Part shown: positions 10,107 through 36,039 of the stretch, piece after piece
How positions within the stretch are numbered: the stretch's first letter is position 1
How the letters are laid out: each line of letters starts with the position of its first letter
Assembly: GCA_905480255.1 (NCBI GenBank)
Contig: CAJQPR010000084.1
Coordinates: 1-36,278, forward strand
DNA from: an uncultured Woeseiaceae bacterium
GTDB lineage: Bacteria > Pseudomonadota > Gammaproteobacteria > Steroidobacterales > Woeseiaceae
DNA length: 36,278 nucleotides
Direction of reading: 5' to 3'
The notes under the pieces: model-generated
The model's input: the letters and a program-made list of their open reading frames with translations, nothing else
Database searches by the model: none
Told to the model about the DNA's origin: nothing
Position numbers and translations under genes: made by a program

Positions 10107-10134
10107 GGTCTCCCCCGGTGATGGTTTTTTTAGC

Positions 10135-12195
10135 CTAGCGGATTTTACTGAAATTTACGACAACGCCGGCGTAGTAGTTTCTCTCAGGCGCCGGCTCGAA
10201 ATAGCGGCCGCCAAATGCATTGATACGGATATTGCTGTTGTAACTTTCATCGAACAGGTTATTCACGCCCAGGTAAGGCCGAATCAGCCACTGGCCGGTC
10301 TCGAGCTCATACGCAAGACGAAAATTAGCGATCGTGTATGACGATACGTCCGCAGTGTTGGCATTGTTCGCGTAGAGATCGCCGGAATAGAAAGCTTCCA
10401 GCGTCCCAATAAACCCGGTGTCGCCCGCATAGGAAAGCCCAACGTAAGCGAAGTGCTCCGGAAGCCCTGGCAATCGATTACCGCTGAAGTCATTCCCGTT
10501 GTCGTCGACAAAATCGTCGAACTTGAAATCCGACCAGGTATAGGAAGCGTCAACACGGAACCCGTTCCCTGTCTCCCAGCTTATTGCAGTTTCGATGCCA
10601 TCACGTGTGGAGCTCCCCGCATTCGAATAGAAGGTCCGACCAGGAAATGCCGCAAGCTCGAACGGAATCAGCTCATCTTCCAGGCTGATGGTAAAGAGCG
10701 CCAGTTCGTAATACAGATTGCCAGCAGAGCGTTTGTAACCGATCTCGAAATTATCCGCCGTTTGCGGATTCAGAAGCGGGTTAAACCCGCCGCTGCCATC
10801 CGGGTTGGCAAGTTCGGTAGTGGTCGGCGTTTCGAATGAGCTGCTATATGACGCGAACAGCACGCCACTCTCCATCCGGTAGTTGAGCGCAATCGACGGG
10901 CTCACCTGGTCGAAATCGAGTTGCCCGGAGTCGTCACCGTTGACGAGGTAGCGATCGGTGACATCATAGGAAAGTTCGTCGTAGCGCAGGCCTCCAAGCA
11001 GTGCCCACGTATCGTTGAATTCATATTGGGCCTGCGCAAACAGGCCGACGTTGTCCACGTTTTCGTTCTGATCAAAAACCATGGGGCCAAGAACACCGTC
11101 GTTGTTGTCAAACCGCTTGCGATCGTCATCCTGCCGGTCGTAATCAATGCCAACCGTAAGGCTGAACGGATCCGGCAATCGTCCAAACGAATATTGAGCG
11201 CCAATGCCATAAAAGAAGCGATCCAGATCAACTGAGCCACCACCTACAAATGGCAGCTTGTTGGCGAACTCCCGCCAGGCATAGTAATTGCGCAGCGTCA
11301 GGTTGCCGGAATCACGGTAACGCTGATAGACCACGCCGAAGCGTTGTTGCTCGAGGGATTCGCCCGCGTCGAACTGCACGTTTCGGTCTCTCGCCGACGA
11401 TGGGGCCTGCGCCGCCTGCGCCGCATTGATGCCTCCGGGATCCTGCGCCTCCGGCTGATCTGTCAGGTTCAGCGCGAATATCAGTTTGTCCGATTCACCA
11501 AGCGGCACGCCGAGTTTGGTGTTCAGCACACTTCCGCGTGCGTTGGAATGATCACGATAACCATCAATCTCGGTCCGCGAAATGTTGACCAGGTAGTCTG
11601 ATTCAGAAATCTTGCCCGCCGACTTCAGCTGATACTGGGAATAACCGTAGTCGCCGCCGGCAACCCGACCCTCGACATACGGATTGTCACTTCCAAGTTC
11701 GCTCATAATCGATATAACGCCGCCAGATGCATTTCCGTAGAGCGATGATGCGGGGCCACGCAGAATCTCTATGCTGCTTGCCGAACCGAGGTCGATGCTG
11801 TCAACGCCAGCCTGGCCGTCGGGTAGGGTCTCCGGAATTCCGTCGACAATGACCTTGATGCCGCGAATTCCGAAACTCGACCTCGCTCCGAAACCACGTA
11901 ATGACACGCGAAGGTCCTGGGCAAAGTTGTAGCGATTCTGCATGTAAAGTCCCGGCACAGCGGCCAGAGCTTCATCGAGACCAAGTTGCTGCGTGCCTAG
12001 CTGTATCCGTTCCTTGCCAACAACCGATATAGATCGCGCAGCATTCCGCACGGATGTTTCCATTCTCGTTGCGGTAACGACGATCTCATCCAGTCTGTCA
12101 TCATCGGGCACCTGGGCCCATGCTGATTGAGCGAGCAAACAAATTGACGCGGCCACCGACAGCCGTAACGACACGGTTCTATTTCGTAAGATCAT
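10135..12195 (-). CDS. TonB-dependent outer membrane receptor
   Basis: This 686-aa outer membrane receptor has a signal peptide (RLSVAASICLLAQSAWAQ) and a TonB-box-like DEIVVTATR. The plug domain follows (SISVVGKERIQ, LRGFGARSSFGIRG, VIVDGIPETLPDGQ, IEILRGPASSLYGNASGGVI), then a beta-barrel with a LIRPYLGVNNLFD segment near the C-terminus. The ATG at 12195 is chosen because the signal peptide starts there; the open frame extends to 12540 but would overlap the divergent gene and lacks a signal sequence. The plug resembles FecA/iron-chelate-type receptors, but the neighbouring amidohydrolases suggest an organic substrate is equally possible. The final residues (NFSKIR) lack the usual terminal aromatic residue. 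Confidence 0.88.
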   Translation of the reverse strand: MILRNRTVSLRLSVAASICLLAQSAWAQVPDDDRLDEIVVTATRMETSVRNAARSISVVGKERIQLGTQQLGLDEALAAVPGLYMQNRYNFAQDLRVSLRGFGARSSFGIRGIKVIVDGIPETLPDGQAGVDSIDLGSASSIEILRGPASSLYGNASGGVISIMSELGSDNPYVEGRVAGGDYGYSQYQLKSAGKISESDYLVNISRTEIDGYRDHSNARGSVLNTKLGVPLGESDKLIFALNLTDQPEAQDPGGINAAQAAQAPSSARDRNVQFDAGESLEQQRFGVVYQRYRDSGNLTLRNYYAWREFANKLPFVGGGSVDLDRFFYGIGAQYSFGRLPDPFSLTVGIDYDRQDDDRKRFDNNDGVLGPMVFDQNENVDNVGLFAQAQYEFNDTWALLGGLRYDELSYDVTDRYLVNGDDSGQLDFDQVSPSIALNYRMESGVLFASYSSSFETPTTTELANPDGSGGFNPLLNPQTADNFEIGYKRSAGNLYYELALFTISLEDELIPFELAAFPGRTFYSNAGSSTRDGIETAISWETGNGFRVDASYTWSDFKFDDFVDDNGNDFSGNRLPGLPEHFAYVGLSYAGDTGFIGTLEAFYSGDLYANNANTADVSSYTIANFRLAYELETGQWLIRPYLGVNNLFDESYNSNIRINAFGGRYFEPAPERNYYAGVVVNFSKIR

Positions 12196-21648: not shown

Positions 21649-23079
21649 TTATCTGCCTGAGCCGAATCGGTAGCCGAACTCGAGCTCTAACTGACTCATC
21701 GTGAGCGTAATGGTCTGCAATGGATCAAACAGGCTTGGACCGGTGATGTCATTTTCCGGCGCATACATCAGCGATGCCGTGAACTGGTGTCCATTTGCGC
21801 GGGTGCGCGTCCAGCCAAAGGTCAGATGTTGCTCCATAATGCCCGGCGCAAGAATGTTGAACAGGACATCCGCCTGTTGGACTGGCTGTTCGCCATAACT
21901 GTAACCGAAGCGCCAGACGTTATTCTCGTCGGAGGCCCATTCGAAGCCGACCTTGTACGTCGTCATGTCGTCCCAGCCAAACCCGGCGCCTTCTTCACCG
22001 CCAAGGCATGGTTCGGCGCTGGTGCCGCCCAGCGGCAACATGCTGCAAGCGAACAGGTTGCTCATCGGGTTTCCGACCGAGTCCACCTCACTGAATGATG
22101 TGTGCTCTATATCGAAGTTAATTCGCAGGCTGTCAGTGGCCAGGAACGAGAGGCCGGCCTTGATACTCGACGGGATGTCGAATCCACCCGCCTGTGCATA
22201 AAGATCCGAGTAGTCATCAAACTCGCTCATGGACAGCTTCGACTGGTAGCCGAGCCCCACGCTGACGGAGTCGCTGATACCCCACCAGAGTCCGGCTGCC
22301 ACGCCAAACCCATAGGATGTGTCATGGCCATTGTCGGTGAGTGACGTCACCTGGTTGATATCGCCGGTGGTCGCAAGGGTCTTGGTGACCGCAGCAAACG
22401 TCCCAACACCCTTCGCTTCGAACATCTGGAAACCGAAAACCGGACCGATTCCAAAAGCGAAGTTGTCGCCGATCATTGCGGCATAGTTAACATTGATGAA
22501 GGCCTGTGACAGGTCGACACCTGCGTCGCCTGCACAAAAGGGACCCGGTCCTGTAGCTGGCCCGTTGGTAATCGGATCGACGCCGCAAAAGAACGATGTA
22601 GCCGATGCATTCGGATCGTCCCAATCGGTGTTCATACCACCACGACCATAGAACGCAGCAGTGATGTTGCCGCCGTTCCCGAGGCTCCAATTCTTGGCCA
22701 CGTAAGGAATAGGGAACCATTCGCTACTGCTGTCTATTTTGCCGGGTGCGATGGAGTGCGTAGGAAGAAACACGCCACCACCAACATCGATAGGTGCACC
22801 GTTTGATGACTGTGCAGACGCCTCGTAGCTGCGCCGGGGACTGAAGAACGACAGGCCAGCCTCCCAACTATCGCCGGCGAATACACCGAGCGCGGGATTC
22901 GAGGCGGTCATGATTGCCCCCATGTTGGCATTGGAGCCGACGCCGGTTCCCGCCATACCTTTGGATTCTACACCGACACCATGCGTGAAGTAACCGTTAG
23001 TCGCCAACGCTAATGTGCTCGCCGCAGAAAACACCAATGCCACCAGCACGGCCGCGGCACTTCTCATCTTCGATTTCAT
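21649..23079 (-). CDS. FadL/OmpP1/TodX-family outer membrane channel
   Basis: This 476-aa outer membrane protein starts with a signal peptide (MRSAAAVLVALVFSAASTLALA) directly followed by the FadL N-terminal hatch signature TNGYFTHGVGVESKGMAGTGVG and SNPAL. It ends in LELEFGYRFGSGR, typical of the family. Members carry long-chain fatty acids or other hydrophobic compounds across the outer membrane. AGGAG lies 6 bases before the ATG. Upstream, 94 bases separate it from the ArsR gene that ends the sHdr operon. A short AGGCC-GCAA-GGCCT hairpin (23094-23107) lies in its leader, with no T-run. FadL-type proteins in sulfur oxidisers have been suggested to import sulfur or hydrophobic substrates, but nothing here proves that. 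Confidence 0.85.
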   Translation of the reverse strand: MKSKMRSAAAVLVALVFSAASTLALATNGYFTHGVGVESKGMAGTGVGSNANMGAIMTASNPALGVFAGDSWEAGLSFFSPRRSYEASAQSSNGAPIDVGGGVFLPTHSIAPGKIDSSSEWFPIPYVAKNWSLGNGGNITAAFYGRGGMNTDWDDPNASATSFFCGVDPITNGPATGPGPFCAGDAGVDLSQAFINVNYAAMIGDNFAFGIGPVFGFQMFEAKGVGTFAAVTKTLATTGDINQVTSLTDNGHDTSYGFGVAAGLWWGISDSVSVGLGYQSKLSMSEFDDYSDLYAQAGGFDIPSSIKAGLSFLATDSLRINFDIEHTSFSEVDSVGNPMSNLFACSMLPLGGTSAEPCLGGEEGAGFGWDDMTTYKVGFEWASDENNVWRFGYSYGEQPVQQADVLFNILAPGIMEQHLTFGWTRTRANGHQFTASLMYAPENDITGPSLFDPLQTITLTMSQLELEFGYRFGSGR

Positions 23080-23556: not shown

Positions 23557-23997
23557 CTAGGCGCAGCCACCGAAGCCCTCGGAATCCATTTTGGCTTCAT
23601 AAGGTGCGGTAACGTCGCTGCCGGTTACCAGTGAACCTTTGACTGAATCCCAATCTTCTGGCTGAAGAATCACGAGCCAGCCGGCGTCATAGGGATCGTC
23701 GTTTGCAATAGACGGATTCCCGACAAGTGTGTCGTTCACGGCCAACACTTCTCCGCCTGCCGCTGATTTCGCCGGGCCAACCCACTTCCCGGATTCCAGC
23801 GTCCCGCAGGACTTGCCGGCACGCACTGAGCGGCCCACTCTTTTGGGTGTGAAAGCGACCAGCTTGCCGGCCATTGCAGTGGCTACAGCGGTCATTCCGA
23901 GTTTCACAGTGCCGTCGCCCTGTTCCTGAAACCAGATATGATTATCAACGTCGTAAAGTAGTTCGTCGGGCAAATTACATCCGCGTACAGCTGGCAT
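23557..23997 (-). CDS. lbpA: Lipoate-binding protein of the sHdr system (GcvH-like)
   Basis: This 146-aa GcvH-fold protein serves as the lipoyl-carrying sulfur-binding partner of the sHdr complex. The lipoyl-lysine motif ESGKW gives K71 as the attachment site, with the following GGEV turn (81-84) as in GcvH. Cysteines at C7 and C145, the latter in a GFGGCA tail, are features of LbpA-type proteins and absent from glycine-cleavage GcvH. No gcvT or gcvP is nearby; instead the gene ends the sHdr gene series and the window encodes a full lipoate assembly set. It starts 2 bases after the stop of the 147-aa unknown, indicating tight coupling. The assignment is strong from both sequence and context. 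Confidence 0.93.
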   Translation of the reverse strand: MPAVRGCNLPDELLYDVDNHIWFQEQGDGTVKLGMTAVATAMAGKLVAFTPKRVGRSVRAGKSCGTLESGKWVGPAKSAAGGEVLAVNDTLVGNPSIANDDPYDAGWLVILQPEDWDSVKGSLVTGSDVTAPYEAKMDSEGFGGCA

Positions 23998-23999
23998 CG

Positions 24000-24443
24000 C
24001 TATGCCTCCTTCGTCAATTGAGTGTCAACATCAGTCGCCTGCCGAACCGGCCTGGACGAACAGCAAAATTCACCTAACGCAGCCACCTGCATTTTCCCGC
24101 TGACAAACAGATACAGGTGATTGGATATCATCTTCATCATGGCCAATCGATCCGTAGTTTCCGCATGATCCGGCTGCAGCGTGACAAGATTGAAGTGGTA
24201 GGCAATTTCACGACAGGTTTCGCGACATGCATTGAAACTTGGGTCTCCTTTGGCTCCCTGCCGGTGCAGCGCCAGGAGTCGAAACCCTTCCCGGGTGTCA
24301 TAGGTCGGATCGTCACCTTTGGCCACAATCCAGTGTTCCAGAACCTCTTCACTGACCTTAAGAATTTCATCGGCAGCCGCATGCAGATCGGGATCCGCTG
24401 TCACTGCCTCGAGCGCATACTCCAGTTCTGCGAGAGACCTCAC
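24000..24443 (-). CDS. Small Cys-containing protein between HdrB2 and LbpA, function unknown
   Basis: This 147-aa, mostly helical, cytoplasmic protein has four cysteines in two groups, C73-x3-C77 (FNACRETCREI) and adjacent C127-C128 (GEFCCSSRP). No known domain is recognised. It begins with GTG overlapping the stop of hdrB2 by 4 bases (24440-24443) and ends 2 bases before lbpA, so all three should be translated in step. The clustered cysteines could bind a metal or carry sulfur, or the protein could chaperone LbpA or HdrB2 assembly; none of this is shown. The frame is intact and codon use matches its neighbours, so I regard it as a genuine gene. Confidence 0.75.
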   Translation of the reverse strand: MRSLAELEYALEAVTADPDLHAAADEILKVSEEVLEHWIVAKGDDPTYDTREGFRLLALHRQGAKGDPSFNACRETCREIAYHFNLVTLQPDHAETTDRLAMMKMISNHLYLFVSGKMQVAALGEFCCSSRPVRQATDVDTQLTKEA

Positions 24444-25372
24444 GCGAGTCCCTTCTGCTTCAGGAATTTCATCGAATCAGAAATATTCTCGTGAACGCCA
24501 ACTTTCTTCGGCTTCAGACCAAGCGCCACCCCAAGCAACTGGGTGAAATACATGATCTTGATTTCAACCTTTTCACCGAACACTTTTTCCGCACGAACCT
24601 GGTGCATTTCCAGCCCCGTATGGCAGGTTGGGCATTCCGTAGCGATCACTTCAGCACCGGACAGCTTTGCAGCCTTCAGAATATTCAGGACCAGCTTCGT
24701 TGACATGTCGCTGTCGGATAGCGTGTGCGCCCCGCCACAGCATGCCGTTTTCAGCGGAAAATCGACGTTCTCAGCGCCGGCCGCTTCAAGCAGGTCATCC
24801 ATAAAGTGTGGCTTGGACGTGGACTCGCTTCCGGGGCCTGCATCCTTCTCCGGAAATATGTGGCGTGGCCGCGTGTACATGCACCCGTAGTAATTAGCGA
24901 TCTTCATGCCATTCAATGAGTTTTTGACGCGCTCTCTTAGCCCGTCTTCACCGATCGCATCCTTGATCCAATCGAGCGCATGGATCGTTTCGACCTGTCC
25001 GGATTCATAGGTCTTGTGACCGGCCTTCTTCGAGAGGCGGTCAACAACTGCAGCGGACTCGCCGTCATTCGCAAGGTCGTACTCAGCCTTTTTGAGATTG
25101 TGATAGCAACCGTTACACGGTGCCATAACCACATCCATGTCCATTTCATTAGCTGCGACAGACATGACCCGTGAAGACAGGTAAGTCTGTATTTTTGGGT
25201 CGATGTTCTTTACTTCCATCGCTCCACAACAATTCCAATTCTTCACTTCCACAAGTTCGAGGCCGAGTTCCTTGCCAATTGCCTTCGTTGACCGGTTATA
25301 CGCATGTCCGGTTCCCTCAAGTGCACAGCCCGGGTAGTAGGCAACCTTTTTGTATTTGTCTTTCGTCGTCAT
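24440..25372 (-). CDS. shdrB2: sHdr complex subunit B2 (two CCG domains)
   Basis: This 310-aa subunit resembles HdrB of heterodisulfide reductase. Two complete CCG domains are visible. The first has C16, C48-C49, C86 and C89 (C-x31-CC-x36-C-x2-C) and the second C164, C211-C212, C247 and C250. In methanogen HdrB these bind two non-cubane [4Fe-4S] clusters at the disulfide site, so B2 is the most catalytically complete B subunit here. In the sHdr pathway the complex is thought to oxidise LbpA-bound sulfur in the cytoplasm and release sulfite. The gene lies 13 bases downstream of shdrC2 and overlaps the 147-aa unknown by 4 bases. Methanogenic function is excluded by context. Confidence 0.92.
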   Translation of the reverse strand: MTTKDKYKKVAYYPGCALEGTGHAYNRSTKAIGKELGLELVEVKNWNCCGAMEVKNIDPKIQTYLSSRVMSVAANEMDMDVVMAPCNGCYHNLKKAEYDLANDGESAAVVDRLSKKAGHKTYESGQVETIHALDWIKDAIGEDGLRERVKNSLNGMKIANYYGCMYTRPRHIFPEKDAGPGSESTSKPHFMDDLLEAAGAENVDFPLKTACCGGAHTLSDSDMSTKLVLNILKAAKLSGAEVIATECPTCHTGLEMHQVRAEKVFGEKVEIKIMYFTQLLGVALGLKPKKVGVHENISDSMKFLKQKGLA

Positions 25373-25385
25373 TTCAGATAATTCC

Positions 25386-26153
25386 TCAGGCTGCCGCGTC
25401 TTTCTGCGCGACGTCGATCAACTCGGACAGGCTTAAAGCTTTTTCCTGGTCCGCATGCTGCTCGTCGATATATTCCTGTATGGCGCCGGCTGCGCCCGAC
25501 CAGTTGCTCGTACGCGGGGCAACAAACGTGGCCAAACCCATACGTGTCAACATCCCAATGGGCAAATGCTTGAGCATTCGTTTAACCATTTCGATCATCC
25601 AGTCCTGCATCAGGCCCTGGTTTGTGCGTTTGAAGAAACGCCTGATCGTCCGGCTCTCTTCGATCTTGCCGGTCGCAACAATTTGTTCGGTGAACACCTC
25701 GTCAAAATGCATCGAGGGAGACTTGGGTGTGTGGCCTTTCAATTCCAGCCAGTGAGCAGTCGCCTTCATGACGCCTTCCGGCACGACATCGCGCGGGCAG
25801 GCATAAGTGCATTTATTGCATGAAACGCATTGCCAGATAATATCCTTGTCGCGCAGCAACTCTGACTCCATGCCCATGCGGATCAGGTATATCCAGAAGC
25901 GCGGATTAAAATCTTCATTGATCGCATGAACCGTGCACGAGTTTGTGCAGGAACCGCACTGCCAGCAACGATGGATGTACTCGCCCCCGGGAAGGGCGGC
26001 GATTTCGTCTTCCATGGCTTCGTTGTAGTCCTTGACCACACGAGATTCGATGAACGTGCTCCAGTGACCTGAAACATCAACGCCATCGAGAATCAACTCG
26101 TCGTGAGTCTGCAGGTTCTCGGGACGAATCAGGGATTTTTCATGAATTGGCAT
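25386..26153 (-). CDS. shdrC2: sHdr complex subunit C2 (two 4Fe-4S clusters)
   Basis: This 255-aa HdrC-like electron-transfer subunit has two 4Fe-4S motifs, CWQCGSC..C (C63, C66, C69, C73) and CVSCNKCTYACP (C109, C112, C115, C119). The first ends CT rather than CP. Residues after 130 form a helical tail ending in a C-terminal ALSLSEL segment. The ATG at 26153 is chosen because MPIHEK begins a normal HdrC2 N-terminus; the open frame reaches 26378, but that region lies inside the preceding gene. With this start the gene overlaps shdrH by 14 bases. It connects the flavin subunit sHdrA to sHdrB2. Confidence 0.9.
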   Translation of the reverse strand: MPIHEKSLIRPENLQTHDELILDGVDVSGHWSTFIESRVVKDYNEAMEDEIAALPGGEYIHRCWQCGSCTNSCTVHAINEDFNPRFWIYLIRMGMESELLRDKDIIWQCVSCNKCTYACPRDVVPEGVMKATAHWLELKGHTPKSPSMHFDEVFTEQIVATGKIEESRTIRRFFKRTNQGLMQDWMIEMVKRMLKHLPIGMLTRMGLATFVAPRTSNWSGAAGAIQEYIDEQHADQEKALSLSELIDVAQKDAAA

Positions 26154-27012
26154 CTGTTTCTTCTGCCTGGTTGAGTAGATTGCCTTCTCCGATGACAAAG
26201 GACTCGCCATCGATAGATTTGAGTTTCGTTTTACCGTTGCCGGGTCGAACGCCATCGAGGCCCAGCAAGCGTCGAGTATGTTGCATCGAATCTTCCGGCG
26301 CCGAAAAATCGGTTCGCAGGTAGCTGCCTCCCTGCTCGCAAATGTAATTTGCATAGACCTGGGCGCACAGCACATCAACGTAATAGAGAATATCGCGGAA
26401 GAAGCCGTTATCGCTCAGAAACTGGCTGAGCTCCTCGCGCAACACGAGGTAAGTTCCATAGCTGTCGCCGACGTGAATTGTAATGTGATCAACGTTGTCG
26501 GCATGCCAGATTTCCCGAATTACGCCCGTATTTGCTTTGGCATCCCAGATCCAGCGATTCATGAGTGGGACGCGTTCCGGATCGCGGTTGTGTAACATTT
26601 CCGTTGCAAGGTCTCGCACCCAACGATGACCTTTGTCGTCGGGAAACAAAGAGCAGAACTGCGCAATTCTCGCATCGACTGAGTCCGTGCTGATGAACAG
26701 TACCTGCAACCCCTCAGTAACCTGCTTGAATGAGTCTTCGTTCAGCCAGGGACCAATTCTGCGGCGGACCGTCGCCATGAATGTACAAAGACCCTTGAAC
26801 GCCTCGATATCCAGTTCGCCGGACTCGATATTGACAAGCGCCTGCTGGAACATTTTGCTCTTCAGCTTGACCGCATCGATGTAGCGCTCGATACCACCAT
26901 GGTCGTTGCTGCCTGCCACCATCGCCTGAAGCGACCGCCGCAAAATATCGGCAGAAAGATCGAGCACCGGGCGCTCGATATCTTGTGGACGAATTGCGTT
27001 CACCTGCGACAT
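26140..27012 (-). CDS. shdrH: Conserved sHdr-cluster protein of unknown function (Hyp)
   Basis: This 290-aa cytoplasmic protein sits between sHdrA and sHdrC2, the position of the Hyp/sHdrH gene of type-I sHdr clusters. No signal peptide, membrane helix or recognised domain is visible. Cysteines are few and scattered (C76, C120, C216, C225), so it does not look like an Fe-S protein. The central region RWIWDAKANTGVIREIWHADNVDHITIHVGD is rich in W, H and D and may be a conserved surface. It begins 8 bases after the sHdrA stop and overlaps sHdrC2 by 14 bases, consistent with being an integral part of the system. The symbol is assigned from cluster position; the biochemical role is not known to me. 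Confidence 0.8.
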   Translation of the reverse strand: MSQVNAIRPQDIERPVLDLSADILRRSLQAMVAGSNDHGGIERYIDAVKLKSKMFQQALVNIESGELDIEAFKGLCTFMATVRRRIGPWLNEDSFKQVTEGLQVLFISTDSVDARIAQFCSLFPDDKGHRWVRDLATEMLHNRDPERVPLMNRWIWDAKANTGVIREIWHADNVDHITIHVGDSYGTYLVLREELSQFLSDNGFFRDILYYVDVLCAQVYANYICEQGGSYLRTDFSAPEDSMQHTRRLLGLDGVRPGNGKTKLKSIDGESFVIGEGNLLNQAEETDANS

Positions 27013-27020
27013 GCGCTACC

Positions 27021-28067
27021 TCAGGCTGACTTTGCCGACTCTTTCAAACCGGACAGCACGGCCATTGCGGCAGCGTGTCCCTGCGCAATGGAATCGTCAA
27101 TTGTCTCCGGCCCGGTTGCTGCCCCCGCAACATATACGCCTGGTCGCGAGGTCGCGCCCATCAATCCGTAGCGATTGGCGACGTCAACAAATCCATGCTG
27201 CTCGAGATCAATACCGAAGGTCTCGGAGATTTCCGGATTGTCGACATTCGGATCCATGCCGATTGCATGAACGACCATGTCGAAAGGAATAGTGATCGGC
27301 CGCTTCACCAAAGTATCTTCGCCCTTGACGATCAGTTTTTCGCCATCAGAGGTAACTTCAGCGATTCGCGCCTTGATGTATTTGACCTTGAATTCTTCCT
27401 GGCTCTTCCAGTAGTACTTGGTTTCGTAAAGACCGAAAGTCCTGATGTCCATGTAGTAAATGTAGACATGGCAATCGGGCAATTCTTCGCGAATCTCCAT
27501 TGCTATGTTTGAAGATACGGTGCAGCAGATTTTCGAACACCACTCACGCCCGATCTGCCTGTCCCTGGATCCAACGCAAAGCAGGATTGCAACGCGTTTT
27601 GGCTTGCGTCCGTCCGAAGGACAGCGAACGCCGCCTCCGGAAGAAAACATTTGCTCGACCTGGGTCGTGGTTACGACGTCTTCATAGGTGCCGAAACCCC
27701 ACTCGGGCTTGTTCACGGAGTCGAAATGCGTAAACCCGGTACACATAATCGCCGCTTCTGCTTCGATTTTCTTGCCGTTGGATAACTCGACATTGAAATT
27801 GCCTGGCTCGCCGTCGAATGTCGTGACTTTGGCGCCAGTCTCGATCTGGACGAGATCATCATCCTCGACGCGTTTTACCATGCCGCCGATTGCGTCCTTG
27901 GCCCATTCGCCAGTCGGAACCAACTTTGCGTAACCGGAGAGGATTGGCGCCCCACCCAGCTGGTCTTCTTTTTCAACCAGGATGCTCTTTCTACCAACAG
28001 TGCCAAGACTGTGGGCAGCCGCAAGGCCTGCCGGTCCGCCACCGATGATTAATATTGGTTTAGTCAT
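27021..28067 (-). CDS. shdrA: sHdr complex flavoprotein subunit A
   Basis: This 348-aa HdrA-type flavoprotein has the FAD-binding GGGPAGLAAA (9-18), the LVEKEDQLGG strand-loop, and a C-terminal RPGVYVAGAATGPETIDDSIAQG motif that closes the flavin domain. The cysteine cluster at C164, C177, C181 and C182 (LCVGSRD...WCSKICC) corresponds to the 4Fe-4S site of HdrA. It is much shorter than methanogen HdrA (about 650 aa) because it lacks the N-terminal and C-terminal ferredoxin domains, which is normal for sHdrA. It overlaps shdrB1 by 8 bases. It is the expected site where electrons from sulfur oxidation leave for NAD+ or another carrier. Confidence 0.93.
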   Translation of the reverse strand: MTKPILIIGGGPAGLAAAHSLGTVGRKSILVEKEDQLGGAPILSGYAKLVPTGEWAKDAIGGMVKRVEDDDLVQIETGAKVTTFDGEPGNFNVELSNGKKIEAEAAIMCTGFTHFDSVNKPEWGFGTYEDVVTTTQVEQMFSSGGGVRCPSDGRKPKRVAILLCVGSRDRQIGREWCSKICCTVSSNIAMEIREELPDCHVYIYYMDIRTFGLYETKYYWKSQEEFKVKYIKARIAEVTSDGEKLIVKGEDTLVKRPITIPFDMVVHAIGMDPNVDNPEISETFGIDLEQHGFVDVANRYGLMGATSRPGVYVAGAATGPETIDDSIAQGHAAAMAVLSGLKESAKSA

Positions 28068-29424
28068 TGGTTAACTCTTTTGGTTTGAAGCCGGGACCTG
28101 AGGTGATCATCAGCCTCGGATCGTAAAGACTCTCGCCTTTGCCGGCCTCGACTTCTTTCAAATATTCTTCGAATTCGGCCTTCTTGGCCTGCCAGTCAAT
28201 ACCCAGCTTCTCCATGAGTGTTTCTGTAGATGACGCATGCCAGTGTGACTGCACGATCTTGTAGGGATGTGCGCCACATACCAGCGCCGCGAACTGGCAG
28301 TCCGCCAGAACAGGCATATCAACTGGTTTGCCGGCGGCTGCGCCGATCCACTGATTCTTGTCGAGGGTTGTTATACATCCGGTGTCATGACCGACCATCA
28401 TGTCAGCCCGGGCTTCTTCCTGGGCAACGCGTAACTTGCGATCGATGGCAAACGAACGCGTGAACTCGCGCTCAGAAATAATGTGCCGGAAACCAAACCC
28501 GCAGCAGTCATACCAGGTTGAATAGTCGATTACCTGTGTACCCAGCGTTTCCAGGAGCCCGGTTGTAACCGCAACACGATTTCCATCGAGAACATCGTCG
28601 TCGTATATCGCGTCTTCGGGAACCATCTTGTAGACATGGCAAGCCGGATGCACAGTTGCACGAATGTGATCGCAATCGATGACCTGGTGCTCCTTGATCC
28701 GGTCACGCATGACGTGCAACCACTCGGAGTAGTGCACTACCTCTTCCGGAATCAGCAATTTTCCATCGACGAGACGACCCAGTTTGCCGAGAATTTTCTT
28801 AACGCGCTCACGGAGCTTCGCCGAGTGGATTAAATAACCGCGTACTTCCTTGTAGTTGCCGAAAGAAGTGCCGCAATGAACCAGCGGATAGTAATAGCCT
28901 TCCGGCAATCCCTGAGCCTTGGCTGCAACATACGCCTGGTGGAAGTTTCTCAGGAAAACAGCGGCCAGGCTCTCAATGTTACCAATCCCGGAGCCGTGAT
29001 AATTCCAGGCGGTGCATGACGTCTGATCGGTCTCATCCAGGTACTTGATGTCCATCTTGTTCATCAGCCACAAGAGCGACGCCGGGTAGCCCGGGATGTT
29101 GCCGCACTGACCACAGGACTTGTGATGCCAGAGCTGCGTGGTAGGTATTTTCTTGTCCCATCCGTAGAGGGTTTTTACCATGACAGGATCGTGCTCGTCC
29201 TTGACGCGGTGAACTATGATTTCACCGTCCTTTTCAAGGTCCCACATCAGGTCGCGAACATCTTCCACGCGATCCTTGTTTGTCAGCATCGACCGCTTGT
29301 TGATGATCTGGTCAACCCAGACCGTCGCAACCTGTGCATCGTCTTTACTAAGATTGGCGTCCGTCCACTCGGAACCATGGCCAGTAAAGCGCTCTTCACC
29401 GCCGTTACCTTTGCCTGTCGTCAT
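28060..29424 (-). CDS. shdrB1: sHdr complex subunit B1 (CCG-type, degenerate sites)
   Basis: This 454-aa HdrB-like subunit is longer than sHdrB2 and its CCG domains are altered. The N-terminal half has CGQC (C104, C107), SCTAW (C137, only one cysteine where CC is usual) and VHCGTSF (C184). The C-terminal half keeps HPACH (C262), YDCCGFG (C307-C308) and HDTGCITT (C350), where the last C-x2-C has lost one cysteine. A further C376 lies in PVLADCQF and C383 in ALVCGAH, which may supply ligands. In published sHdr systems B1 is likewise the less canonical B subunit. It lies 23 bases downstream of shdrC1. The role is inferred to be structural or electron transfer. Confidence 0.9.
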   Translation of the reverse strand: MTTGKGNGGEERFTGHGSEWTDANLSKDDAQVATVWVDQIINKRSMLTNKDRVEDVRDLMWDLEKDGEIIVHRVKDEHDPVMVKTLYGWDKKIPTTQLWHHKSCGQCGNIPGYPASLLWLMNKMDIKYLDETDQTSCTAWNYHGSGIGNIESLAAVFLRNFHQAYVAAKAQGLPEGYYYPLVHCGTSFGNYKEVRGYLIHSAKLRERVKKILGKLGRLVDGKLLIPEEVVHYSEWLHVMRDRIKEHQVIDCDHIRATVHPACHVYKMVPEDAIYDDDVLDGNRVAVTTGLLETLGTQVIDYSTWYDCCGFGFRHIISEREFTRSFAIDRKLRVAQEEARADMMVGHDTGCITTLDKNQWIGAAAGKPVDMPVLADCQFAALVCGAHPYKIVQSHWHASSTETLMEKLGIDWQAKKAEFEEYLKEVEAGKGESLYDPRLMITSGPGFKPKELTND

Positions 29425-29447
29425 TCGATTCTCCCAAATAATTCTGT

Positions 29448-30191
29448 TTAGTCGTCTTGCTCTTCCAACCAGTCGTCATAGTCATCGCGTTTTTCATCCA
29501 TGATGTCGCAAATAACGTCGAACAGGTTTTCGTCGATTGTCTCGAGACTGTTGAGCACCCCGGTTTCTTCCCAGATCGTGTAAAGCTCAACAGAAGTTTT
29601 AAGATTGACTTCCCAAGCCGTCTTGGTGGTATGCAATGTCGGCATGGGAATGGCCTTGCGCAACAATTCGAGCGGCGCATCGACCTTGGATATGTTTGGG
29701 CCCCAGTCAGCAAAACCTTCCGGATTAATCATATCCGGTGACAACTGGTTACCCGTGGAAATCAGTTTGAGCATAACGCGGCTGAATGGCCTGAGTACCT
29801 GCTTGGCCGATTCCATACCATGTTTGATCGCCGCCTCACGCATCACCATGATCAATCCGCCCGGAGAATTGCCGAACGGACAACGTGCCGCGCACGTATA
29901 ACACTGTGCACAAGACCAGATTTTTTCCTGCATGGCATCGTAGATGCCTTCCAGATTTTCCGTCCAGAGAAGCTGGACGATTTCACGCGGACTGAAGTCG
30001 TAATAGTGAGCTGCAGGACAGGTTGCCGTGCAGATTCCACAATTCAAGCAACCATTCAGTTCGTGATCAAAGCGCAGATCGCCCTGGATATCCTGAAAAA
30101 TCTCTTCCAGCTTTTCTCGTTCGACCGGCGTCGACTCGGTTAACGGATCACCGATGTATTGCTGGACCCTGGTCGTGGACGAGTGCGACAT
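29448..30191 (-). CDS. shdrC1: sHdr complex subunit C1 (two 4Fe-4S clusters)
   Basis: This 247-aa HdrC-like subunit has two perfect 4Fe-4S motifs, CLNCGICTATCP (C48, C51, C54, C58) and CAQCYTCAARCP (C94, C97, C100, C104). The tail after residue 120 is helical and ends in an acidic stretch. The ATG at 30191 is chosen because its A overlaps the final A of the dsrE stop (TAATG), a classic coupled start; the open frame extends to 30266 inside dsrE with no homology. It begins the core shdrC1-B1-A-H-C2-B2 order, the type-I arrangement. Confidence 0.92.
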   Translation of the reverse strand: MSHSSTTRVQQYIGDPLTESTPVEREKLEEIFQDIQGDLRFDHELNGCLNCGICTATCPAAHYYDFSPREIVQLLWTENLEGIYDAMQEKIWSCAQCYTCAARCPFGNSPGGLIMVMREAAIKHGMESAKQVLRPFSRVMLKLISTGNQLSPDMINPEGFADWGPNISKVDAPLELLRKAIPMPTLHTTKTAWEVNLKTSVELYTIWEETGVLNSLETIDENLFDVICDIMDEKRDDYDDWLEEQDD

Positions 30192-30568
30192 TAGTAGGCC
30201 AAGACTTTGCAGTCTTCCTCCATGACCTGCTCGATCAGATGCGCGCCGCCGACGATGCCCTCGCATTCGGGAATCAGGTCATCCAGAGTCATATCAAACA
30301 AATCAAGATTTGGAGAACAACAATAGAACTTGACGCCTGCTTCGTGAGCGTCCTGGATAAAGCTGTAAACTGACTTCGGCGAGCCTTCCTTGACGAACAA
30401 TTCTTCGGCGACGCCTTTCTTCATCAAGCGGCCGGACGTCGCTGTGCAAATCACATCGACCTCGTAGTCCATCGCGGCAGCGACCGTAGCCTGGAAAATC
30501 GGTGCGCCCAGTTCCTCACCGTTGCGGGGGTCTGTATTCGCCATTACGATAATGAGTTTTTCAGCCAT
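30191..30568 (-). CDS. dsrE3C: DsrE-family sulfurtransferase (DsrE3C-type)
   Basis: This 125-aa DsrE/DsrF-like small protein relays persulfide sulfur in the cytoplasm. The two adjacent cysteines C83-C84 in KFYCCSPNLDLF lie at the active-site position of DsrE3C proteins encoded beside sHdr genes, where this pair accepts and passes sulfur. C41 lies in VICTATSG. The N-terminal LIIVMANTDPRNGEEL strand-loop and the overall length match the family. GAGGAAG lies 5 bases upstream of the ATG at 30568. No TusA gene, its usual partner, is in this window. It directly precedes shdrC1 and presumably delivers sulfur to LbpA. Confidence 0.88.
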   Translation of the reverse strand: MAEKLIIVMANTDPRNGEELGAPIFQATVAAAMDYEVDVICTATSGRLMKKGVAEELFVKEGSPKSVYSFIQDAHEAGVKFYCCSPNLDLFDMTLDDLIPECEGIVGGAHLIEQVMEEDCKVLAY

Positions 30569-30617: not shown

Positions 30618-30631
30618 TTAGCATATACTAA
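30618..30631. promoter_or_regulatory. Near-palindrome ahead of dsrE, possible operator or internal promoter
   Basis: TTAGCATATACTAA is symmetric at 12 of 14 positions. It spans the stop of the amidotransferase-like gene and lies 50 bases before the dsrE start, in the longest gap (59 bases) inside the - strand run. AT-rich dyads of this size are the kind of site ArsR-type repressors bind. On the - strand the core also reads TATATGCTAAT, which could hold a -10. No function has been shown. Confidence 0.35.
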
Positions 30632-31425
30632 ATTACTCGAGTATCCAATTCCTCAACCGGCACTGTGGCTGCCTTTGGCGAGGACATGAGTGATGTGCAC
30701 TGGACGAGACCCGTCATAATCGGGACGAGTGCGTCCTCAATTTCTAGCTGAAGTGCCCGCAGTTGCTCGAGTCCGGCGTCCGTGTTTCCGGGCACCTCCT
30801 CGAACTCCATAATCAGGTCCTCAACCATGCCAAGCTTAATTCCAGGATTACCGAGAAAGCCATAAGCATTATCACCAACCTGGAATACGGCTGGCCGGCC
30901 ATTTTCGTCCGTTGCCAGGACCCGGGCGTCCTTTGGCAGGATCGGCAGGTCCCGCATGTAGACCACCTGGGGGAATTGCTCGGGGAGATACGCATTCAGG
31001 GCATCGTCCGCGACCCTCGTAACAGTGGTTGCTCCAAACTCCAAATCGGCTTTTTGCACGCCACCGCCCGCCGCCAATGCGAGAATTTGCGCACCCAGTC
31101 CGAATCCTACGACAGGCGTTCCCTCTGCAAGACGCTGTCGGGTGACCTCAACTTCGGCTTCCAGTGTTGGTAGATCTCTCGACCCGGCAGAGCCCCATGG
31201 CCCGCCGCCAAGCAAGAATAATGCGTCCGCCGGAAGGTCTGGCGCGGGTAACTTTCCTCCGCTCGCAAACGGCCTGAAGTACTGGAAGCGAATTCGTCGT
31301 CCTTCCAGGTGATCCTCTATCAAACCCAGGTATTCACCAGCAGTGTGCTGAATGACCGCAACGACATTCATCGGCATCTCGGTGCGATTCGCCATTACAA
31401 ATGCGTCAGGACTGCATTCACCCAT
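30628..31425 (-). CDS. Class-I glutamine-amidotransferase-fold protein lacking the catalytic triad
   Basis: This 265-aa protein has the class-I GATase fold: LFLLGGGPWGSA (70-80) as the oxyanion-side loop, the nucleophile-elbow region VVGFGLGAQILALAAGG (106-121), and YGFLGNPGIKL (188-198). In active enzymes these read G-x-C-L-G-x-Q and Q-F-H-P-E. Here the Cys is G109, the His is N193 and the Glu is G195, so glutamine hydrolysis by the usual mechanism is not expected. A GATase-like gene is known among lipoate-assembly genes linked to sHdr, so a scaffold or binding role is likely. ATG at 31425 is chosen for its AGGGTG ribosome site and 8-base overlap with the ligase gene; ATGs at 31395, 31377 and 31371 are alternatives. 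Confidence 0.8.
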   Translation of the reverse strand: MGECSPDAFVMANRTEMPMNVVAVIQHTAGEYLGLIEDHLEGRRIRFQYFRPFASGGKLPAPDLPADALFLLGGGPWGSAGSRDLPTLEAEVEVTRQRLAEGTPVVGFGLGAQILALAAGGGVQKADLEFGATTVTRVADDALNAYLPEQFPQVVYMRDLPILPKDARVLATDENGRPAVFQVGDNAYGFLGNPGIKLGMVEDLIMEFEEVPGNTDAGLEQLRALQLEIEDALVPIMTGLVQCTSLMSSPKAATVPVEELDTRVI

Positions 31426-32500
31426 GCTGGTCACCCTGTGTGCCAAGGGCATCCGAAATCGATGCCTTGAAGTCATCTGCAGTGACGCTCAGCATGTCGA
31501 TTTCGGTGCTACGAAAAAAATCATCGACCGCCGCATCTATCTCTTCCAGACGGTTACCTTGCAGATGCGCTTCCAGGTCGAACACGGTACGCGGTGGCGT
31601 CACGAAGAAATCACCGCTAATCAGGACCCGCTGCAGAATGCCACGCGTAGGGCCTTCGAGTTTTACATAGGAATCGATCGTGCCACCGGCGCCGGTATAA
31701 CTTCCGGCCAGTACCTGCTCGTCTGCTCCGGCAGCGTCGATTTCAGCGACAAAATCATTCGAGCCGATTTCATCGTCGAAGTATTTTCTTGCCAGCGCTT
31801 CTTCACCAACTGTGATCTCGCCGGATTCGGCCGTGATGCCGAGCCCGCGCGTGAATCCTTTGATCATTGCGTCCTTGACCTTTTCAAGATCAGGCAGATC
31901 ATCGCCTAACAGTTGCTTGAGCGTGGTCACACGTTGCGCGGCGGAATCGAGATTCCGTTTGGCTAATTTGCTTTCAGGAATTTTGAGCGCACGAACCATG
32001 TGCTCCGGATTCATATCGACGAGAACTGTGCCCTGGTAGATGAGGACATCGCCGTCGAAGAAACCGCCGGTGCCGCTGATTTTTCGCCCGTCCACTTCGA
32101 TATCATTTCTTGGCCGGAATTTCGCATCGACCCCCAGTTCACCAAGCCCCATCGCCGCCGCATTACAGATTTCTGCTGCAATATCGGGCAAGGCGGCTAT
32201 CCCCAGCGACGACCGGTTGAAAACCAGCTCCCAGCCCAGCTGTCCTTCGTCAAGATAGATCGCCCCGCCGCCGGTAATCCTGCGAACTGTGCCTACCCCG
32301 TTGGCGGCGCAGTATTCCAGGTCCACCTCCCTGCTCAGGTCCTGGTGCCGACCAATCAATGCTGTCGGAGGAAATCGCAGGAAACGAATGGTGTCAGGCA
32401 CTCTGTCGGCCTGCCGTTCCTCAATCAGGGCGGCGTCAAACGCGATATTGGCGCGCCCTTCACGCACACCCGTATCGATTACCCGGAAGCTGTTGGTCAT
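31418..32500 (-). CDS. slplA: Lipoate-protein ligase A family (sLplA)
   Basis: This 360-aa LplA/BPL-fold enzyme attaches lipoate or octanoate to the lysine of LbpA. The adenylate-binding RRITGGGAIYL (73-83) and the catalytic-lysine motif GRKISGTGGFF (138-148, K140) are intact, and RFLRFPPTALIGRHQ (39-53) is the family's N-terminal strand. The C-terminal third is an accessory domain rich in acidic residues. Two starts compete: ATG at 32500, used here, with AGGTG about 10 bases upstream, or GTG at 32512, which directly abuts the stop of the radical SAM gene. Its context between LipS1 and the sHdr genes supports LbpA as the target rather than pyruvate dehydrogenase. Confidence 0.9.
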   Translation of the reverse strand: MTNSFRVIDTGVREGRANIAFDAALIEERQADRVPDTIRFLRFPPTALIGRHQDLSREVDLEYCAANGVGTVRRITGGGAIYLDEGQLGWELVFNRSSLGIAALPDIAAEICNAAAMGLGELGVDAKFRPRNDIEVDGRKISGTGGFFDGDVLIYQGTVLVDMNPEHMVRALKIPESKLAKRNLDSAAQRVTTLKQLLGDDLPDLEKVKDAMIKGFTRGLGITAESGEITVGEEALARKYFDDEIGSNDFVAEIDAAGADEQVLAGSYTGAGGTIDSYVKLEGPTRGILQRVLISGDFFVTPPRTVFDLEAHLQGNRLEEIDAAVDDFFRSTEIDMLSVTADDFKASISDALGTQGDQHG

Positions 32501-32512
32501 TGCTGCCCGCAC

Positions 32513-33766
32513 CTATTCCACAGATACCGGGATTTCGAGTTGTTTCCTGATCTTCTTGAGATCCTTTTTCTTTGGCTGGAACGGATAGCTTGCAATGTCG
32601 CTCGGCGGTGAATCGCCGTAGGGTCGATCGCAAGCGGAAATATCTTCCTGGAATTTACCCGGACATCCTGATGTCCTGAACGCAATGCCCTCGTCAATGA
32701 CTCCGGACAACTCAGCCTCCGAAATTCCGTAGCCGACCACGCGGCCGGATTCGTCGAACTTCATCTGCTCGACACGCACGTCACGATAATCGATCAGATA
32801 GCGAGCCAGTTGGACGCGCCGCCATTGGTCACGCGGCGTTGCGGGTAAGTGGTCCATCAACGAGCCTTGTTCCGGGAAGAAACAGAACATGTGGCTGTGA
32901 CCACCAATATCGACGAGCTCCTGTACGAGTTTCAGAACTTCGTACTCTGTTTCACCCATGCCGACGATGATGTGGGCGCCAAATTTTTGTGGACCGAAGA
33001 TATCCCTCGCATCTTCGAGGATCTCCCAGTACTTCGACCATTTATGTGGTGATTGCACGCCTTTGCCGCGAGTACGGTCGAAAACTTCCGGCGTTGCAGC
33101 ATCCAGCGCGACGGTAAAAATGTCGGCACCCAGGTCTTTCGTCTTCTGCACATCGTCCCGGGTCATTGTGGTCGGATTCGACAGAATCGAAACCGGAATG
33201 GCGTCGGGATCAATCTTGTCTGTCCATTGCTTCAGTACTGTGAAGGTGTCGTCTTCGGATCGCGGGTGAGTGATCATCGAAATGCACATTCTGTGGAACG
33301 GACTGCTTTCAGGATCCTTCGCAACAATGTCGATGATCTCTGCCATCGGCACCGCCGGCCAGTCCACCCGAATGAAATTTCGATCCGCGTAGTCGCGATC
33401 CGCCTCGCGATGGCGAGCGAGACCACAATAAGCGCAGTTGGCGCGGCATCCTTCCGGATATGTCAGGAGAAGATTGAGGCAACGCGTGCATTCGCAACCG
33501 TACATCTTGCCGCCCATGATGCCGAGCGTAATCGCTGCAGCAGTCGAAAGCTGCACGTACTCCGGCGAAACCATGTGTGGCGCCATGATGTTGTTGTTGG
33601 GCAGATAAACGCCCTGTGGCGGAATGTCGTTGGCCTTCACATGACGACCATTTTTTCGATCGGTCGGCGTCTTCAGCGGTGCGCGGGGCTGCATAACATC
33701 AAAGGGATTATGATCCTGCGCCGATTTTCCGTTGGCTGGTGTTGTCTTATGCTCTATGCAACTCAT
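32513..33766 (-). CDS. lipS1: Radical SAM lipoate synthase component LipS1
   Basis: This 417-aa radical SAM enzyme has the cluster motif C-x3-C-x2-C at C107, C111 and C114 (GCRANCAYCGLA). A second set, C91, C93 and C96 (GCECTRC), and C-terminal cysteines in RTSGCPGKF and SACDRPYG could bind the sacrificial auxiliary cluster that donates sulfur. It belongs to the biotin-synthase-like family that, paired with LipS2, replaces LipA in assembling lipoate on LbpA-type proteins. The long N-terminus (about 60 residues) is hydrophilic. It starts with ATG at 33766, 28 bases after lipS2. The LipS1/LipS2 labels follow relative length and family type and could be swapped; the pair assignment itself is firm. 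Confidence 0.85.
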   Translation of the reverse strand: MSCIEHKTTPANGKSAQDHNPFDVMQPRAPLKTPTDRKNGRHVKANDIPPQGVYLPNNNIMAPHMVSPEYVQLSTAAAITLGIMGGKMYGCECTRCLNLLLTYPEGCRANCAYCGLARHREADRDYADRNFIRVDWPAVPMAEIIDIVAKDPESSPFHRMCISMITHPRSEDDTFTVLKQWTDKIDPDAIPVSILSNPTTMTRDDVQKTKDLGADIFTVALDAATPEVFDRTRGKGVQSPHKWSKYWEILEDARDIFGPQKFGAHIIVGMGETEYEVLKLVQELVDIGGHSHMFCFFPEQGSLMDHLPATPRDQWRRVQLARYLIDYRDVRVEQMKFDESGRVVGYGISEAELSGVIDEGIAFRTSGCPGKFQEDISACDRPYGDSPPSDIASYPFQPKKKDLKKIRKQLEIPVSVE

Positions 33767-33794
33767 TGATTATATTCTCGTTTTGTAAACATCA

Positions 33795-34832
33795 TTACGC
33801 AGCAAAGGATCGCGCGATCTTTTCGCTGAAATCACTGCCCAGTTTTATCGAGCAACAGGAGTGCGCCTGTTCAAACGGGCGACCAATTGAATGCGCCACG
33901 GACACGGCACCATCCGCGGGAAACGCGATCCCATCCAGTCCCGCCATAATTGCGTAAGCGTCAGTCACTCGCTTGTGCATGCCGGGTGGCCGGGCGCAGC
34001 CGAGCAGCACCTGCTTATCGGGCAGCCGGGCGCGAGCTTCTGCGAACATTCGACCGACATCCAAAGTGTCAGGCGTAACGAAAGTGCCCGGCTTCGCGTA
34101 GAAAGGCATGATCACAACCAGGACCAGCGCCGTTACCGGATAACGACTAACAATATCCAGCGCATTGGCTTCGCCCAGAATTTTTCCGTAATGAAGGCCA
34201 ATGACGATATGTGGCGTTACCTCCATCGAGGTCGAACAAAGCGCAGCCAGGGTTTCCTCGAAATCAGCAACGGGACGATCGAGCTTGTAAACCTGCTTGA
34301 TAGTCTCCGCCGCACCGATGACATCCATCATTACGGTATCAACACCTGCGGATTCCATTGCCTTGGCGCGCTGTTCATCAAGGAGTGCGCTGTGTATCGC
34401 GATACGCAGATCCGGAAAATCGTTTTTAAGCTTTTCAACTACAGGTAAATAGCGACCATAGGAGATTTCATTACGTTTGTTGGAGCCGCCGGACAACAGG
34501 AAACCGTTCAAGCCCTGAGTTTCGATCAGGTGCCGGACTTTTTCGTCGAGCATCGCCGGGTTCGTCGCCGGTATCATCGGCTCGAGGATCTTTTTCTGGC
34601 AGTGATCGCAATTGAGGCCGCACGCGCCGGCCGTAATAGAAAATGCGGGAAAACTGTTCTTGCCACATCCTTTTAGTTCGGTACTCGAGTATTCCTTGAA
34701 TGTGGGGGTCGAAAACCGGATCGGACGCGGCTCCGCCCCTTCTGCGCGGCGCTCGAGTTCGTCAACCAAAGACGCATCGAACTCCGCGTCTTCAAGGTCT
34801 TCGATACGCCCCAGTTGTTCAAGCCATGTCAT
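33795..34832 (-). CDS. lipS2: Radical SAM lipoate synthase component LipS2
   Basis: This 345-aa radical SAM protein has the 4Fe-4S motif at C71, C75 and C78 (GACGLNCDHCQKKIL), followed by FLLSGGSNKRNEISYG. It resembles uncharacterised biotin-synthase homologues common in archaea, the source of LipS2. Further cysteines occur at C56 (KGCGKNS), in LLGCARPPG and as adjacent C326-C327 (AHSCCSI), possible auxiliary cluster ligands. ATG at 34832 is chosen because GGAAGGAAG lies directly upstream; the open frame extends 39 bases further into the deacylase gene. It overlaps that gene by 14 bases. With LipS1 it should insert two sulfurs into an octanoyl group bound to LbpA. Confidence 0.83.
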   Translation of the reverse strand: MTWLEQLGRIEDLEDAEFDASLVDELERRAEGAEPRPIRFSTPTFKEYSSTELKGCGKNSFPAFSITAGACGLNCDHCQKKILEPMIPATNPAMLDEKVRHLIETQGLNGFLLSGGSNKRNEISYGRYLPVVEKLKNDFPDLRIAIHSALLDEQRAKAMESAGVDTVMMDVIGAAETIKQVYKLDRPVADFEETLAALCSTSMEVTPHIVIGLHYGKILGEANALDIVSRYPVTALVLVVIMPFYAKPGTFVTPDTLDVGRMFAEARARLPDKQVLLGCARPPGMHKRVTDAYAIMAGLDGIAFPADGAVSVAHSIGRPFEQAHSCCSIKLGSDFSEKIARSFAA

Positions 34833-36039
34833 GTTTTCTTCCTTCCATTCGCGACCGATTGCCGGGAGCAACCAGCGACGCCACTGATTTTACGGCGTTC
34901 CGGATCGGGCCGGGATAGGGAGAATCCGCCATGGTCGTGAGCCAGGCCTCATCCACATCTTCCTCATCGATCAGGTCGCATTCCATCGACCGCATGAATT
35001 CCACTGCTTCGTCGGGCAGGCTTTCAGGAATCTCCTGTCCGCTTATCCGTCCCCACAGCCCTGCCCAGTAACGGGTTACCGTCCATGGATTATAACCTCC
35101 ACCACCGAGAATAACGGTAGGCTGACCCAGCGCGATCAGCTGATCAACCGCCTGCCACAGGGCAACATTGCTCAGCATCATGCCTGACAACGGGTCACCT
35201 GCAAGGCAGTCTGCCCCGCAACAAATGACAACAGCATCCACTGAGAAGTCTTCCACCAGCGGCAGGATGGCCTCCTCCATAAGATAGTTGAGTTCGCTGT
35301 CATTCACACCTTTCGGAACGGGCAGGTTTCGTGCTTGTCCGGATTTGCCCGCGGCGCCGCTATATGGCCAGCGCTCTTCTTCGTGGACAGAAACAGTCAT
35401 CACACGTGGCTCACTCTCGAAGGCAGCTTCAACGCCATCACCGTGATGCGCATCGAGGTCAACATAAAAGACTTTTTGCCGGCCTTGTTCCAACAAGGTG
35501 TTGATTGCATAAACCGGATCATTGAAATAGCAAAAACCGCTGGCCCGGTCCGGCCTGCCATGATGTGTGCCCCCGGACGGGTGAAAGACAATGTGCCCTG
35601 CGCAGGCGAGCTTCGCAGCCAGGATTGACCCGCCAACGGTCATTGATGCTCGCTCGAAAAGCCCTTCGAACACCGGGTTTTCAAGGGTGCCGATGTTGTA
35701 GCGTTCGCGAACCTCCGGCGCGACCTGACCTTCGGACTCTGCGTATTGCAGGGCATCGATATAGTCTCGATCATGAAACTCGCGGAGTTGTTCGACCGTC
35801 GCCCGTTCACTGGCTTGATAGGTTTTCTCGGAAAGCCAGCCGAGCATCCCGACAAGATCGAGAACAGCGGAATGTCGAACAATCTTCAGTGGATGGTTGT
35901 TACCGAATGCTGCACGACGATAGACGTCGCTACCGACATAGATCGGCCCCGGCGTTTCCGGTGCTATGGACAGCGGGACGACGCCGGGCGTTGTCCCGGT
36001 ACGATCGGTGGCTGAGTTTTGTGAGACTGGTTTGTGCAT
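34819..36039 (-). CDS. Histone-deacetylase-family lysine deacylase (AcuC/class I HDAC-like)
   Basis: This 406-aa zinc-dependent deacylase of the arginase/HDAC fold has an apparently intact active site. H159-H160 lie in SGGTHHGR, Zn ligands D196 and H198 in DLDAHHGDG, D277 in CGADCLAGDPL, and Y316 in GGGGYNPW. GFCYFND (168-174) is also conserved. Bacterial relatives such as AcuC deacetylate acetyl-CoA synthetase, and others act on polyamines. It is the first gene of the - strand run and overlaps lipS2 by 14 bases, so it is made together with lipoate enzymes. Deacylation of LbpA or of mis-acylated lysines is a possible role but purely inferred. The first 30 residues are poorly conserved-looking and the start could lie downstream. 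Confidence 0.85.
   Translation of the reverse strand: MHKPVSQNSATDRTGTTPGVVPLSIAPETPGPIYVGSDVYRRAAFGNNHPLKIVRHSAVLDLVGMLGWLSEKTYQASERATVEQLREFHDRDYIDALQYAESEGQVAPEVRERYNIGTLENPVFEGLFERASMTVGGSILAAKLACAGHIVFHPSGGTHHGRPDRASGFCYFNDPVYAINTLLEQGRQKVFYVDLDAHHGDGVEAAFESEPRVMTVSVHEEERWPYSGAAGKSGQARNLPVPKGVNDSELNYLMEEAILPLVEDFSVDAVVICCGADCLAGDPLSGMMLSNVALWQAVDQLIALGQPTVILGGGGYNPWTVTRYWAGLWGRISGQEIPESLPDEAVEFMRSMECDLIDEEDVDEAWLTTMADSPYPGPIRNAVKSVASLVAPGNRSRMEGRKHDMA

Follow-up and report, generated by a model that had tools for sequence, protein, structure and literature searches.

Among described systems, the closest to the locus reported here is that of Hyphomicrobium denitrificans, in which Dahl and colleagues described lipX (Hden_0687) as a putative glutamine amidotransferase gene whose start codon overlaps the stop codon of slpl(AB), its upstream neighbour (PMC10332631, PMC10451225); the same gene had earlier been labelled GATase1 (PMC6067878). 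The passages on lipX in the excerpts of these papers contain no mention of a missing catalytic triad, of a functional test, of an unlinked sister or of a distribution that follows sHdr and not LipS. According to the same excerpts, LbpA was lipoylated in E. coli by lipS1-slpl(AB)-lipT-lipS2, with no lipX present (PMC10332631), which, as far as that account goes, argues against an essential role of LipX in this step.

The window, that is, the whole stretch of 36,278 nucleotides analysed here from an uncultured Woeseiaceae bacterium, carries its sHdr and lip genes on the minus strand, in the gene order published for lipX. The lipX gene (30628..31425, minus strand) encodes a Cys-less class I glutamine amidotransferase (GATase)-fold protein of 265 amino acids. 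Its ATG at 31425 sits inside the end of the ligase gene, giving an 8-base overlap (ATGGGTGA), and the frame is open; an alternative start at the internal ATG for M19 is possible. Upstream lie the lipoate-protein ligase sLpl(AB) (31418..32512), recognised from profile matches and sequence, and the lipoyl synthases LipS2 (32513..33766) and LipS1 (33795..34868), each named after its best NCBIfam match, which scored below the curated cut-off. Immediately 3' of lipX, a gene for a DsrE-family protein (30191..30568, profile match) occupies the position of dsrE3C, followed by the sHdr cluster C1, B1, A, HypX-like, C2 and B2 (24440..30266; open reading frames and locus comparison), whose subunit names were set by order and conservation across loci, and by a GcvH-like lipoate-binding protein, LbpA (23557..23997, profile matches), all on the minus strand. 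The window gene is therefore assigned to the LipX family by its place between slpl(AB) and dsrE within an sHdr-lip cluster, and Hyphomicrobiales loci with the lipX gene order encode proteins homologous to the window protein along its whole length.

Several neighbouring features were also recorded. An HDAC-family protein (34819-36039, minus strand; Pfam E 2.8e-68) heads the lip genes and has the usual metal-site motifs HPSGGTHHG, DLDAHHGDG and GGGGYN. Its gene is present in 53 of 80 lip loci, and also in a genome that has lip genes and no sHdrB1 (G637, below); the terms searched for such a protein do not occur in the excerpts of the 2023 lipoate paper. The protein would be a deacylase, perhaps a delipoylase, that goes with the lip genes. 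In the window and in the Woeseiaceae loci lipT is missing between lipS1 and lipS2 (33766-33795 in the window); many other loci have a gap of ~1.1 kb at this point, which is the place of lipT. Near the locus, a FadL-like outer-membrane protein (21649-23079, minus strand) recalls lipY, a putative fatty acid transporter in other clusters.

The gene neighbourhood of lipX varied among the 80 loci compared. The nearest upstream gene found was sLpl in 68/80, in many cases overlapping, and the nearest downstream gene found was dsrE in 71/80; under a strict distance criterion for both, lipX lay between the two in 53/80. Several loci have a divergent arrangement, in which lipX stays with dsrE-shdr, apart from sLpl; in the Robiginitomaculum type and in genomes G592 and G626 the lip genes are divergently oriented, and in most of these lipX is the first gene on the dsrE-shdr side. 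The loci examined contained no fusion of sLpl with LipX, the one candidate (G510) being a long open frame out of frame with sLpl, and no plasmid copies of lipX were found. Two loci (L026, L041) have LipS2 directly upstream of LipX and no sLpl detected in the locus; their ligase may be encoded elsewhere or have been replaced. Four others (L042, L045, L055, L080) come from records under the titles Bordetella parapertussis or Klebsiella pneumoniae; their sHdr loci are of environmental type and cluster with those of betaproteobacterial MAGs, so the titles are probably mislabels.

At the nucleophile elbow (31087..31107, minus strand) the window protein reads G107-F-G109-L-G-A-Q113 (GFGLGAQ), with Gly for the expected Cys, and at the second motif (30835..30858, minus strand) F190-L-G-N193-P-G195-I-K197 (FLGNPGIK), with Asn and Gly for the expected His and Glu, both placed by alignment and sequence. 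We aligned it with 80 homologues from Gamma-, Alpha- and Betaproteobacteria and co-aligned 11 ordinary GATases. Among the 81 LipX sequences the Cys site (column 109) was Gly in all 81, the Glu site (column 195) was Gly in 80 and Ala in one, never Glu, and the His site (column 193) was His in 60 and Asn in 21. Since the co-aligned GATases read Cys, His and Glu at these columns in 11/11 cases each, the register is sound, and the sequence-only reading, which had all three triad residues changed in the window protein (G109, N193, G195), was borne out. Scoring the triad across the GATase-like proteins of sHdr/lip loci, as that reading had proposed, extended the loss of Cys and Glu to the loci in general, with His kept in 60/81. 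In the tree all Asn193 members, including the window protein, fell in a single clade, well supported and made up of Woeseiaceae and relatives; five members with His also belong to it, one of which branches among the Asn members. As judged from this alignment, the loss of Cys and Glu is family-wide and the loss of His occurs only in the Woeseiaceae clade, some of whose members retain His.

The fold and the reading frame are preserved. Window LipX matches the Pfam GATase model (PF00117) with E 3.5e-5, above the model cut-off, and its best NCBIfam match is the glutamine amidotransferase model PRK07053 (E 1e-20), but below that model's own cut-off. The AlphaFold2 model (pLDDT 86.4, pTM 0.87) aligns with class I GATases along the entire domain (DnfC 8khs, TM1158 1o1y and 3m3p, Z 22-24), the best PDB match being DnfC 8khs with Z 24.2 over 217 residues at 2.3 Å. 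The dN/dS of lipX against its nearest relatives is ~0.05-0.12, with dS near or at saturation; this substitution pattern shows the gene to be under purifying selection. Decay or a frameshift is ruled out by the open frames and the low dN/dS, and the earlier view that the gene is not decaying held. Of the features of an active class I glutamine amidotransferase, the protein retains the GATase fold and lacks the Cys nucleophile and the His and Glu of the HPE motif.

A class-wide search brought to light an unlinked LipX sister subfamily, and this is what is new here. An hhalign comparison shows the sister to be a full-length homologue of LipX (probability 99.9, 32% identity); it has a GxGxG elbow, with Gly at the Cys site in 16/16, and a second motif F-R-P-E-x-K-P, in which His has become Arg and Glu is kept. 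In 16/16 genomes its gene adjoins genes for a LysR-type regulator and a short protein, and a PerM-like permease comes next in most genomes whose fetched sequence extends that far. Because it lies outside the sHdr operon, in this LysR/PerM context, its role might differ from that of LipX. A third, distant pseudo-GATase type (GIELGGQ, HPQ) was seen in an sHdr-positive genome (G274, locus L115), near 8870-10280 and divergent from a DsrE2-like gene. It has Glu at the elbow, as do two LipX orthologues from bona fide sHdr loci (G592 and G626), so the elbow residue can change.

LipX and its sister share a set of residues that are mostly lacking from intact GATases: E37, E41, R43, F47, Y49, R51-P52-F53, K197, M200, E202-D203 and M206-E207. 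Two stretches of these are R51-P52-F53 (31267..31275, minus strand) and E202-D203-x-x-M206-E207 (30805..30822, minus strand), the latter in a helix of the AlphaFold2 model after the former HPE motif; both are kept in the two subfamilies and not in intact GATases. The charged residues invariant in LipX are E37, D38, H39, E41, R43, R51, R158, D159, E202, D203 and E207, of which Arg158-Asp159 stands at the position of the HGD-like motif of GATases.

No elbow Cys was found in the 81 LipX and 16 sister sequences, nor in 28 further sequences examined, and neither subfamily has a conserved Cys at any position. A misplaced triad or an alternative Cys is ruled out, given that no Cys is conserved and some members are Cys-free. 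Nor did a LipX profile search find a second, intact-triad GATase in sHdr/lip loci, the kind of homologue in the same gene context that would have spoken against the sequence-only reading. Zero-Cys members exist in both subfamilies; persulfide or thioester chemistry is therefore excluded as a shared function, and we infer that what the members of the LipX family do in common cannot depend either on Cys-based glutaminase chemistry or on a persulfide relay. The protein is almost certainly dead as a glutaminase, to judge by its residues, and the suggestion that it is non-hydrolytic gains support from the same comparison. That LipX is nonetheless an active glutaminase, by way of another Cys or a residue from a partner, agrees with its annotation as a "putative glutamine amidotransferase" in the excerpts of PMC10332631 but is contradicted by the lack of a conserved Cys and by the Cys-free members, and we regard it as exceedingly improbable.

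The distribution of the family was followed in three samples of bacterial genomes, 274 gammaproteobacterial, 107 from Woeseiaceae and 398 from the phylum. Of the 274 gammaproteobacterial genomes 18, spanning 12 families, have sHdrB1, and in a search with the sister alignment as query, whose matches below 1e-30 include LipX itself, LipX or its sister occurred in exactly those 18 (LipX in two, the sister in 16) and in none of the 256 others. An identical set of 18 would arise by chance with a probability of ~10^-28 if genomes are treated as independent, a figure that ignores shared ancestry. The sHdr-negative genomes G267 and G259, in contrast to their congeners G156 and G147, carry intact GATases only. 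In Woeseiaceae, LipX was found in 33 genomes, HdrB1 in 32 and LipS2 in 34, in nearly coinciding sets; from the contig positions, the few mismatches look like fragmentary assemblies. In the phylum sample LipX was present in 6/8 LipS2-positive genomes and 0/390 others. The two LipS2-positive genomes without LipX are G637 (below) and G274, an sHdr genome with lip genes in a different order, which carries the third pseudo-GATase instead. From these patterns, it is quite likely that the Cys-less family, LipX and unlinked sister together, is dedicated to sHdr.

Two genomes separate sHdr from lipoate synthesis. The near-complete genome G637 (locus L126) has lipS1, lipS2, sLpl, LbpA, DsrE and the HDAC-like gene, with no sHdrB1 and neither LipX nor a relative; its LbpA may be used outside sHdr. 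Conversely, the single-contig genome G106 has sHdr, LbpA and the sister, with no detected LipS2. Because the former lacks the pseudo-GATase and the latter keeps it, the pseudo-GATase follows sHdr and not lipoate synthesis, a separation that rests on a single case on each side. A partnership with LipS or sLplA, as the sequence-only reading had envisaged, is not supported by these two genomes, nor by the lipoylation in E. coli without lipX reported in the excerpts of PMC10332631. Distance-tree correlations of LipX with its neighbours singled out no partner.

It may be that LipX is a lipoylation gatekeeper that sits beside sLpl(AB) and helps the ligase to recognise LbpA, by analogy with class III biotin protein ligases (BPLs), whose N-terminal domain has a GATase fold. 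The frequent position of lipX directly after sLpl, in many cases overlapping it, would suit such a role, and in the yeast BPL a GATase-fold domain that showed no glutaminase activity in vitro stands beside a related ligase domain (PMC12582158); this precedent of a GATase fold as the non-glutaminase companion of a cofactor ligase keeps the idea alive. Yet LbpA was lipoylated in E. coli in the absence of lipX (PMC10332631), G637 encodes sLpl and LbpA but not LipX, G106 carries the sister with no LipS2 detected, sLpl and LipX are not fused in any of the loci examined, and the sLpl distances fit those of LipX worst of all neighbours. On balance we consider a gatekeeper unlikely. Somewhat less likely still is a ligand sensor, in which the former glutamine pocket would bind a metabolite and set the activity of sHdr or LbpA. 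The fold persists, as does part of the pocket framework, Arg158-Asp159 is invariant at the HGD-like site, and the sister adjoins a LysR regulator in 16/16 loci, but most of the shared conserved residues fall in the RPF and ED-ME stretches, and the ligand is a putative one. The many invariant charged residues of LipX would suit an enzyme that uses the old site for some other chemistry, one that needs no Cys. Nevertheless, the elbow is Gly (Glu in two of the LipX orthologues), position 193 has moved from His to Asn or Arg, and the second motif differs between the LipX and sister subfamilies, which makes such an enzyme improbable.

We conclude that LipX is probably an overlooked binding partner of sHdr rather than the kind of enzyme that its annotation implies, because the cutting residue is gone in every relative examined and yet the family is present in 18/18 sampled gammaproteobacterial genomes with sHdr and 0/256 without it. 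More precisely, we slightly favour the reading that LipX, dead as a glutaminase, is a non-covalent partner of sHdr and LbpA. LipX would act through non-covalent binding, and might dock LbpA to the sHdr complex or help to assemble that complex; on present sequence and co-occurrence, an adaptor or assembly role for LipX specifically is a tentative proposal, a little short of even. We give about equal weight to either side of the broader proposal that the Cys-less GATase-fold family, whether as lipX in the operon or as the unlinked LysR-associated copy, is an unrecognised obligate sHdr component that works together with LbpA or the sHdr complex rather than in lipoate synthesis. LipX points to a missing component of the pathway by which sHdr, aided by lipoylated LbpA, oxidizes sulfane sulfur. 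The misleading annotation as an amidotransferase of lipoate assembly is corrected to a protein predicted to be catalytically dead, and lineages without lipX have a counterpart outside the operon.

Compared with known systems, LipX shares with PRK07053-type class I GATases, DnfC, TM1158 and 3m3p the whole-domain fold and the GGP/elbow framework. It departs from PRK07053-type GATases in its residues, Cys being absent in LipX and the sister, Glu in LipX and His in the sister. The likeness to the N-terminal domain of class III BPLs (PMC12582158) is that a GATase fold is paired with a cofactor ligase, in both cases from the same superfamily; there, however, the triad is mostly kept, H215 and E217 are retained and ligase and domain form one fused protein, whereas window LipX is a separate, Cys-less protein with N193 and G195. 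Closest is LipX (Hden_0687) of H. denitrificans, which, as described in the excerpts of the published work, is alike in its gene position slpl(AB)-lipX-dsrE3C and in its overlapping start and stop codons, the identity of the window gene being set by this gene order.
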